64,000 nucleotides of DNA from Bacteroidales bacterium (GTDB taxonomy: Bacteria; Bacteroidota; Bacteroidia; Bacteroidales; UBA932), in assembly GCA_015060395.1 (NCBI GenBank), contig SUYP01000002.1, positions 87,074 to 151,073 on the forward strand, in the 5' to 3' direction. The notes beneath the pieces were generated by a model that did not search any database, was not told the origin of the DNA, and worked only from the letters and a program-made list of their open reading frames with translations. Every line of letters begins with the position of its first letter. Position 1 is the first letter of the stretch. This document shows positions 46,626 to 62,386 of the stretch, piece by piece. Both the position numbers and the translations under genes were made by a program.

Positions 46626-47579
46626 ATGGAAATAAGCGCAAAGATACTGACTCCGGAAGACGAAGTCCTTTCAAGGGACATCAACGACTATCCGGAAGGG
46701 ATAATAATCCCGATAGACAAGCCATACAGATGGACATCGGCGGACGTGATCAGAAAGGTCAAGTTCGCCGCTATCCGTCATTTCGGCAAGAAGAACCTGA
46801 AAGTAGGTCACGCAGGCACCCTCGACCCGCTCGCCACCGGCATCCTCCTCGTATGCATCGGGAAAGCGACCAAGCTGGCCGAACAGCTCCAGGCCCACCA
46901 TAAGGAGTATATAGCCGGAGTGACATTCGGTGCCACAACCCCGTCGTACGACCTTGAGAAGGACATCGACAGATTCTTCCCGTACGAGCATATAACCTCA
47001 GAGTCTGTAGCCTCGGCATTGCCTTCATTCATCGGTGAGCAGGATCAGATCGCTCCCCTTTTCTCAGCCAAATCAGTCGATGGCGTACGCGCATACGAGC
47101 TTGCCAGAAAGCTTCATAAAGAGGGCAAGACTCTTGACGAAGCTGCGGAAGAGCTGATACGAGTATCCAGAATCAATATTACGGAGTTGAAACTGTTGAA
47201 GTTTGAAGGTCGAGATGAGGAAATCGAGGACCGTGCCACCCGCGGCACGGAAGCGGGGGGACCACGAGCGAAGCGAAGTGGTGGGGTGAGCGAAGCGAAC
47301 GTCCAAGATTCCTCATCCGACCTTCAAACATCGGATGCCTCCAGCCGAATCAACGTGACTGACAATTCGGAACTTGGCCTCCCGCGCGCAGTCATCAGAA
47401 TTTCCTGCAGCAAGGGAACATACGTCCGCGCATTTGCCCGTGATCTGGGCGAGGCACTCGGCAGCGGAGCCCATCTGGACAGCCTGCAGCGCAGCCGCAG
47501 CGGACTATTCCGGATAGAAAACGCATTAACGGTCGATCAGACCATAAACCTGCTCACAGCGTGGCAGGCAAACCAGTGA
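46626..47579 (+). CDS. truB: tRNA pseudouridine(55) synthase TruB carrying an in-frame palindromic insertion
   Basis: The 317-residue protein makes pseudouridine 55 in the T loop of tRNAs. The catalytic Asp is in VGHAGTLDPLATGILLVCIGKATKL (about residue 69) and the conserved CSKGTYVRAFARDLG follows at about 260. Between LKLLKFEG and LPRAVIRISCSKGTY, where family members have only a short turn, lie about 60 extra residues of low complexity (DRATRGTEAGG..., then SSSDLQTSDASS). Their DNA, 47201-47329, is a large inverted-repeat element of 43 codons in length that leaves the frame intact. The enzyme is probably still active because the insertion sits in a loop. Confidence 0.92.
   Translation: MEISAKILTPEDEVLSRDINDYPEGIIIPIDKPYRWTSADVIRKVKFAAIRHFGKKNLKVGHAGTLDPLATGILLVCIGKATKLAEQLQAHHKEYIAGVTFGATTPSYDLEKDIDRFFPYEHITSESVASALPSFIGEQDQIAPLFSAKSVDGVRAYELARKLHKEGKTLDEAAEELIRVSRINITELKLLKFEGRDEEIEDRATRGTEAGGPRAKRSGGVSEANVQDSSSDLQTSDASSRINVTDNSELGLPRAVIRISCSKGTYVRAFARDLGEALGSGAHLDSLQRSRSGLFRIENALTVDQTINLLTAWQANQ
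47201..47329. repeat. 129-bp palindromic element inserted in truB
   Basis: Left arm 47201-47231 (GTTTGAAGGTCGAGATGAGG...) and right arm 47301-47329 are inverted copies differing only by two single-base gaps and a two-base change. Inside are a perfect 7-bp hairpin (CCGTGCC/GGCACGG, 47231-47250) and two copies of GAGCGAAGCGAA. The length is divisible by three and no stop arises in the truB frame. The core, read on the minus strand, resembles the core of the element in hutI. Confidence 0.8.
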
Positions 47580-61069: not shown

Positions 61070-62386
61070 ATGAAGACAATAATATACAATATAGGGACAT
61101 TGGCGGGGATACTGCCGGAGGGAGTCCTGAAGCTGGAGGGCGAGGAGATGAAGCAGGTGGAGTGCATCGAGGATGCGTATCTGGTGATCGAGGATGGGGT
61201 TATCTCCGAATTCGGGGAGGCTTCCGGACACTGTTGTACCGGAGACAACCCCTCCCGCTTCGCGGGTCCCTCCCCCTGCGGCCAGGGGGGTAGCACGGTC
61301 TCCGGTACAACAGTGTCCGGAAGCTGCGAGCCAAAGATTGAGTATATAGACGCGAAGGGAGGATTTGTGCTGCCTTGTTTCTGCGACAGCCATACGCATA
61401 TAGTTTATGCCGGATGCCGTGACGGAGAGTTCCGAGACAAGATTGCAGGACTGAGCTATGAAGAGATTGCGGCACGAGGAGGCGGAATCCTGAATTCGGC
61501 CGATCTTCTTCACAACACTTCAGAGGATGAGCTTTACAGGCAGTCGATGGAGAGAGTGAACGAGATTATGGCTATGGGTACCGGAGCTGTGGAGATCAAG
61601 AGCGGCTACGGACTGACCGTCGAAGATGAGCTGAAGATGCTCAGAGTCATAAAGAGGATCAAGGAGACAGCACCAATCACCGTGAAGGCGAATTTCCTTG
61701 GCGCGCACGCTGTAGGCAGGGCATATAGAGGACGTCAGAGCGAGTATGTAGATCTGGTCTGCGACGAAATGCTCCCGAAAGTGGCAGAAGAAGGCCTTGC
61801 AGACTTCGTTGACGTGTTCTGCGACACTGGGTTCTTCACAGTGGAAGAAACGGCCAGAATCCTCGAAAAAGCAGCAAAATACGGCATTCGTCCGAAGATC
61901 CACGCAAACGAGCTGGAGGTTTCCGGCGGAGTGCAGGTGGGAGTGAAATATGACGCGCTTTCCGTGGACCATCTGGAGAAGACTACGGATGCCGAGATAG
62001 AGGCTCTGCGTGGAAGCGGCACAATGCCTACGATGCTTCCGGGATGCTCGTTCTTCCTCGGACTGCCATACGGAAGGGCAAAGGATTATATCGAGGCCGG
62101 ACTTCCTGTGGCACTGGCATCAGACTACAACCCAGGATCAAGCCCTAGCGGAAATATGCGCTTCGTGATGGCTCTGGGATGCATCAAGATGCGTCTCACA
62201 CCAGAGCAGTCCCTCAATGCCTGCACCATCAACTCCGCATACGCAATGGGAGTCAGCGACATCCTTGGCTCGATTACGGTCGGCAAGAAAGCCAACCTCA
62301 TCATCACAAAGCCGGTTCCGTCTCTAGCCTTCATTCCTTACAGCCACCAGACACCGGTGATTGAGAGGGTTATCATCTCAGAATAA
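61070..62386 (+). CDS. hutI: Imidazolonepropionase carrying an in-frame palindromic insertion
   Basis: The 438-residue amidohydrolase opens the ring of imidazolone propionate to give formimino-glutamate. Metal-binding and active-site features are PCFCDSHTHIVYAG (His-x-His, about residues 108-110), RPKIHANELEVSGGVQVGV and ALASDYNPGSSPSGNMRF. Residues 51-85 (ASGHCCTGDNPSRF...TVSG), between strand VISEFGE and strand EYIDAKGGFVLP, are coded by a 105-bp perfect-armed palindrome and are cysteine- and glycine-rich, unlike the rest of the protein. The frame is kept and all catalytic motifs are intact, so activity is probably retained. Confidence 0.93.
   Translation: MKTIIYNIGTLAGILPEGVLKLEGEEMKQVECIEDAYLVIEDGVISEFGEASGHCCTGDNPSRFAGPSPCGQGGSTVSGTTVSGSCEPKIEYIDAKGGFVLPCFCDSHTHIVYAGCRDGEFRDKIAGLSYEEIAARGGGILNSADLLHNTSEDELYRQSMERVNEIMAMGTGAVEIKSGYGLTVEDELKMLRVIKRIKETAPITVKANFLGAHAVGRAYRGRQSEYVDLVCDEMLPKVAEEGLADFVDVFCDTGFFTVEETARILEKAAKYGIRPKIHANELEVSGGVQVGVKYDALSVDHLEKTTDAEIEALRGSGTMPTMLPGCSFFLGLPYGRAKDYIEAGLPVALASDYNPGSSPSGNMRFVMALGCIKMRLTPEQSLNACTINSAYAMGVSDILGSITVGKKANLIITKPVPSLAFIPYSHQTPVIERVIISE
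61220..61324. repeat. 105-bp palindromic element inserted in hutI
   Basis: Left arm 61220-61246 (GCTTCCGGACACTGTTGTAC...) and right arm 61298-61324 are exact reverse complements over 27 bases. The 51-base centre holds two more hairpins, CCCGC-TTC-GCGGG and CCCCCTGCGGCCAGGGGG. The element starts exactly at a codon boundary and is 35 codons long. The centre and the right inner flank (GGTAGCACGGTC) resemble the truB element read on its minus strand (GGTGGCACGGTC). Confidence 0.88.

Follow-up and report, generated by a model that had tools for sequence, protein, structure and literature searches.

Most of what is known of coding palindromes comes from Rickettsia and Wolbachia. The palindromic elements of these genera (approximately 105 to 146 nt) occur in frame in conserved protein genes as well as in intergenic regions, and one tested host protein with a Rickettsia palindromic element (RPE) stayed functional (PMC2229807). 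RPE families can be told by their terminal inverted repeats, the identity of which is lost with time (PMC2229807; PMC6649704). Template switching is known to homogenise hairpin arms and to invert spacers (PMC8604942), and it both creates and maintains hairpins (PMC8794818). Nematomorph mitochondria have perfect inverted repeats that are actively maintained in protein genes, and template switching has been proposed as the process (PMC6649704). REPs are shorter (20 to 40 bp) and have a fixed GTAG or CGTC end (PMC3733652).

Here, we describe a family of palindromic elements from one group of gut bacteria, uncultured Bacteroidales, two members of which lie in the window (i.e., the whole stretch of DNA that was analysed; 64,000 nucleotides). 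Both consist of a tip flanked by arms that pair with each other (Table 1). The Rickettsia coding palindromes are the closest kin in kind; the present elements likewise lie in frame in genes for conserved proteins (e.g., TruB, HutI, MiaA, DnaX, FtsK, RNase R, and RecG). The comparison, which spans different phyla and is one of features only, also reveals clear differences: there are no shared terminal repeats, only the tip is common to the copies and it flips, and the arms stay matched while diverging, with decay at a minority of sites. Template switching or quasipalindrome correction homogenises the arms of hairpins and inverts their spacers, also within coding genes (PMC8604942, PMC8794818), and the mirrored multi-base arm changes found here are of the same type; however, such hairpins are local and lack a conserved spacer that is dispersed and structured. 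The nematomorph palindromes differ in residing in organelle DNA, and the cited part of that account notes no shared tip family (PMC6649704). REPs are also dispersed palindromes, and RAYT-like Y1 transposases co-occur with our elements in genomes, but the latter are 100 to 130 nt long, have variable arms and no GTAG/CGTC end, and do not flank the Y1 genes. Unlike MITEs, the tip family has no fixed terminal inverted repeat, and no autonomous relative came to notice among the loci studied. Because tests for shared terminal repeats, fixed ends, and flanking transposase genes were negative, we do not file the family as RPE, MITE, or REP. Mitochondrial double-hairpin and other repetitive hairpin elements are similar in being mobile structured hairpin DNA. 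They are not known to have site-specific long arms, and we set them apart by description.

The truB insert and its structured tip

The host ORF was assigned to truB by Pfam (TruB_N, 2.5e-39; TruB_C_2, 3.2e-7), and the best structural matches of its product are TruB entries (i.e., 1k8w and 1sgv). The first-pass annotation had placed an inverted-repeat insert of 43 codons in this reading frame at positions 47201 to 47329, and we confirmed both the insert and its coordinates. The arms, which had been described as nearly perfect and about 30 bases long, are indeed inverted but shorter (23 to 27 nt). They form a 23-bp duplex with two single-A bulges, followed by GGAC/GTCC (47228 to 47231 and 47301 to 47304), and the outermost part of the left arm (47201 to 47225) encodes a conserved Phe of a strand of the host protein. 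The GGCACGG hairpin (CGTGCC/GGCACG) and the two GAGCGAAGCGAA units that had been read in the core are both present, the latter as exact units at 47266 to 47277 and 47288 to 47299. The folding z score of the insert is -4.5 as RNA and -4.45 as DNA, and none of 200 shuffles was equally stable.

The insert had also been interpreted as a tolerated in-frame insertion at a loop. This interpretation agrees with an AlphaFold2 model of TruB, in which residues 198 to 243 (pLDDT, <50) lie between two strands, the remaining fold is intact, and the insert is predicted to be disordered. A comparison with sister TruB proteins points the same way, as the relatives hold unrelated sequence or nothing at this position; a loop kept at the protein level across the order over unrelated DNA was looked for and not found. 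A search of the genome with the truB core recovered a further copy (94% identity over 83 nt; E = 1e-30). Overall, the earlier reading of the insert is partly supported, as regards the tolerated in-frame insertion; its placing of the loop near the RNA-binding face is conjectural. What it missed is that the insert belongs to a family dispersed across the genus, with site-specific arms that change together and a core that flips; the truB insert is one family member and no peculiarity of TruB.

TABLE 1 Features of the two palindromic elements in the window
Feature	Position	Strand	Length or composition	Basis or remark
truB (tRNA Psi55 synthase) ORF with insert	46626..47579	+	317 aa	Pfam and structure matches
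Entire palindromic element in truB	47201..47329	+	129 nt (43 codons)	Open and in frame
Left arm	47201..47225	+	GTTTGAAGGTCGAGATGAGGAAATC, 25 nt	Two bulged A
Conserved tip (core)	47226..47306	+	~80 nt	Common to dispersed copies; model R1
P1 closing helix	47228..47304	+	GGAC (47228-47231) with GTCC (47301-47304), GA/AA on flanks	Sequence, alignment A1
P2 hairpin	47232..47249	+	CGTGCC-ACCCGC-GGCACG	Pair counts
Pseudoknot	47239..47257	+	Loop CCCGC (47239-47243) with GCGGG (47253-47257)	Covariation, 77/79 copies
P3 hairpin	47261..47282	+	ACCAC...GTGGT, GC-GAA-GC inside	
P4 hairpin	47286..47300	+	GT-GA-GC-GAA-GC-GA-AC	
Right arm	47307..47329	+	GATTCCTCATCCGACCTTCAAAC, 23 nt	Pairs with left arm
hutI-like ORF	61070..62386	+	438 aa	With subfamily II element
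HutI left arm	61220..61246	+	27 nt	Perfectly complements right arm
HutI tip	61247..61297	-	51 nt	Inverted relative to gene
HutI right arm	61298..61324	+	27 nt	

The tip has a conserved fold. In an alignment of 52 tips, the P2 loop pairs with a downstream stretch to form an H-type pseudoknot, and the pair types covary among the 79 parsable copies (GC:GC in 40, UC:GA in 33, and GU:AC in 4, with 2 exceptions). Paired cells amount to 97.7%, compared with 91.0% in shuffles and 36 to 76% in slid controls. The P3 and P4 hairpins are free to vary in sequence, and a simple finder recorded GNA triloops in 34 and 48 of 82 loops; the same finder returned no GNRA or UNCG tetraloops in these 82 loops. GNA triloops are exceptionally stable in DNA, and their frequency here hints at, without proving, single-stranded DNA as the relevant form of the tip. 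Two scans of 26 element-carrying loci with the Rfam 15 covariance models gave no credible match, and HDV-like, twister, and pistol folds were dropped on topology alone. At one methylase site (L102, L135, and L100), P3 is wholly swapped for a longer hairpin between near-identical species (flanks of L019 and L102 at this site, 98% identical).

Dispersal among genomes and host genes

The tip in truB was recovered within the window by model R1 with 89.6 bits (E = 1.4e-25). The further copy that the search with the truB core recovered in the same genome sits, also in frame, within a gene for a transporter, and its arms are unrelated to those in truB. BLAST detected the tip in 71 of 399 genomes of the family among the matches listed, each genome contributing no more than two scored candidates. 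With the covariance model (E ≤ 0.01; E values are rough), the tip was found in 99 of 120 genomes of the genus, with up to approximately 30 copies per genome among the matches listed, of which no more than 33 were scored. The size and host range of the genus suggest that it is Cryptobacteroides. Among 295 genomes drawn from the order, a threshold of 1e-4 was passed by the source genome, one other genome of its family, and two of other families. One exact pattern retrieved 65 stretches from the GTDB collection, all of them titled Bacteroidales or Bacteroidia and derived mostly from MAGs of ruminants and other herbivores. Matches to GAGCGAAGCGAA on contigs C32 and C33 were rejected as an unrelated intergenic repeat outside the tip family. 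Exact-pattern searches of viral contigs for three subfamilies, as well as searches of plasmid and phage collections, gave no match indicating carriage by phage or plasmid. We found no description of the tip family in the open-access literature, which is weak evidence of novelty.

The tips comprise at least three subfamilies (i.e., I, including the truB copy; II, CGTGCTACCCCCCTGGCCGCAGGGGG..., including the HutI copy; and III, GACGTGCCACCCCCGGCTAGGGGG..., intergenic). In the source genome, subfamily III tips sit on mostly intergenic, terminator-like hairpins (L250 to L263, L265, and L266), many with an A-tract ahead and a T-tract behind, so that a structured tip of conserved sequence appears to cap terminators in this genome.

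Pfam identified the hosts as TruB, MiaA (IPPT), DnaX, FtsK, SpoU methylase, RNase R, RecG, and GcpE, together with a GDP-mannose-dehydratase-like epimerase, a 2-oxoacid dehydrogenase E2, and an RluA-type pseudouridine synthase; some copies are sense and others antisense to the gene. Since 63 of 78 copies lie within ORFs of at least 200 aa, as do 81% of random windows, there is no targeting of genes and no visible avoidance beyond frame. Adaptation of the cores to be stop-free was rejected, as they exceed no expectation from composition; the open frame is thus a filter on surviving copies and no property of the element.

RAYT-like Y1 transposases are candidate mobilisers, being present in 13 of 13 element-rich genomes versus 5 of 17 element-free ones (Fisher p = 8.7e-5, uncorrected for phylogeny). 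In 34 stretches (2.4 to 4 kb) around Y1 genes, a search for a flanking element gave one strong match, approximately 0.9 kb upstream of a Y1 ORF. The source genome encodes three RAYT-like Y1 proteins of approximately 300 to 340 aa (L309 on G000:C39, L308 on C3, and L310 on C27) with the N terminus "HIYQR...VFY." Reverse transcriptase was rejected as a mobiliser, as RVT_1 exhibited no association with the element.

Matched arms and flipped tips at orthologous sites

The second palindrome of the window (61220 to 61324) lies in frame in an ORF that we take to be hutI from sequence similarity and a neighbouring hutH-like ORF. Arms of 21 to 29 nt occur in 11 of 25 HutI sequences, and most of the others have none. 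The HutI gene of the nearest relative fetched (G678) carries an element at the same site, with a flank 83% identical and arms that are also perfect. The arms of the two species differ at positions 3, 9, 20, 23, and 24, all five differences are mirrored in the opposite arm, and the tip is inverted. More generally, an arm complements its own partner far better than that of another species (HutI, 0.985 versus 0.50; TruB, 0.995 versus 0.32; permutation p = 5e-5 for each), these values coming from arm sets picked for long inverted repeats in related and thus nonindependent species. Mirrored differences outnumber one-sided ones in alignable arm pairs (131 versus 10 for HutI; 19 versus 4 for TruB); as any difference between species is bound to be mirrored when both arms are perfect, these counts restate the lasting match and are not independent tests. 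The arm counts therefore speak for the persistence of matching during sequence change, not for p values. Between species, tips are approximately 83% identical in either orientation and HutI arms 53%.

In the HutI tree, the presence of the element changes at least eight times (four changes are forced by well supported branches), and the reversed L278 nests with the forward L284 and L288 with 100% bootstrap support. The same tip inversion occurs at another site (L079/L112). The TruB and HutI loops are insertion hotspots. A comparison of HutI and TruB tips within genomes (0.75 to 0.89) and between species (0.82) gave no signal of within-genome homogenisation for the four pairs available. One genome (G380) has two different hutI loci (L303, G380:C37), one of which recurs unchanged and with the same coordinates in another genome (L290, G323:C6); this common locus may reflect bin contamination.

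We consider it quite probable that a dispersed and presumably mobile tip is combined with arms that are made and kept matched by replication template switching, which would also flip the tip. In each copy, the conserved structured tip, with its short closing helix, its pseudoknot, and one or two hairpins, crowns a stem of 20 to 30 bp that takes its sequence from the site and not from the family. The nascent strand would snap back and copy the opposite arm or the flank, by which arms could be created, extended, and re-matched, and the same template-switch mutation could invert the spacer and thereby flip the tip. Copies would survive in genes if they keep the frame and land in a tolerant loop, adding a disordered peptide. 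Of the known processes that copy flanks as reverse complements, restore the match between arms, and turn spacers round, template switching is the simplest. It explains the arms and the flipping but not the dispersal of one conserved tip, so a transposition-like step is needed, through which tips would reach new sites. We also entertain, as a conjecture that we think more apt to fail than to hold, that the tip is a mobile self-templating nucleic-acid structure (probably single-stranded DNA, in view of its GNA triloops and of conservation irrespective of orientation) that triggers template switching on landing, builds its stem from the target sequence, and keeps it perfect. If so, the host site would write the terminal repeats of a mobile element.

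Rather improbable, in our view, is that the arms are kept matched by compensatory substitutions because their RNA or DNA structure has a function under selection. The strong structural covariation within the tip and the persistence of matching arms over approximately 20% divergence are consistent with such selection, but elements run in either direction with respect to the gene and so share no sense-strand mRNA fold, and the same gene lacks the element in related species. Moreover, the arms still match in two copies that have lost nearly all of the tip (L052, with a 10-nt loop, and L055, with 28 nt). The family also cautions that compensatory covariation in a long stem need not imply a functional RNA.

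Arms across sites and empty sites

Nearly every intact copy has inverted-repeat arms, and these are unrelated in sequence across approximately 90 copies. A conventional selfish MITE or Rickettsia-type element, with terminal repeats that are part of the element and decay after insertion, would account for a dispersed, palindromic, in-frame family of approximately 130 nt and for the decayed arms at a few sites (TruB of G645 and HutI L277 and L294). In RGIG3749, moreover, at least four places hold copies of the whole unit, arms included, so the tip can take its arms along. We nevertheless judge this explanation unlikely: arms differ between sites although tips are 80 to 94% identical, and many species have perfect yet different arms, a pattern by which the HutI series already strains it.

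A slightly weaker candidate is that tips enter old, pre-existing palindromes (e.g., terminator hairpins), as the position of subfamily III tips on intergenic, terminator-like hairpins (A-tract ... T-tract) would suggest. Orthologous coding sites that are free of the tip argue against it, having no palindrome: this holds for the empty transporter orthologues (G362, G416, G289, and G415) and for empty L122, L161, L044, and L130 compared with filled L038, L028, L119, and L131. Furthermore, near-perfect repeats of 20 to 27 nt are otherwise unexpected at coding loops (shuffle maxima, 8 to 14). No near-identical filled/empty pair was found, the nearest flanks being 70 to 80% identical, so arm formation was not caught in one step; at this same level of flank identity, no target-site duplication is evident in the filled/empty alignments. 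That the insert is spliced out or bypassed to give a normal protein, like the bypassed palindromic elements of Magnusiomyces mitochondria, is very improbable despite the strong hairpins in essential genes, because neither process would require an open frame and the inserts at TruB, HutI, and other checked sites keep the frame open whichever way they point.

Compared with the Rickettsia and Wolbachia elements, the family offers a much larger living case, with up to tens of copies per genome, many of them in frame in housekeeping enzymes, and hundreds of species sampled. One and the same site can be observed without the element, with it, with the tip turned round, and with its arms rewritten, which makes two questions testable. 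One is whether bacterial palindromes arise and stay matched through template switching or through selection; the other is by what route a structured DNA tip disperses and comes to furnish essential proteins with disordered loops. Short repeats of other kinds (TCATCCTGAGCGAAGCGAAGGATCT-like and ATTTCGAGCGAAGTCGAGAAATCT-like) are present in the genomes of L016, L017, L056, L059, L102, and L287, some of them in the same protein loops, which thus accept several kinds of repeat.
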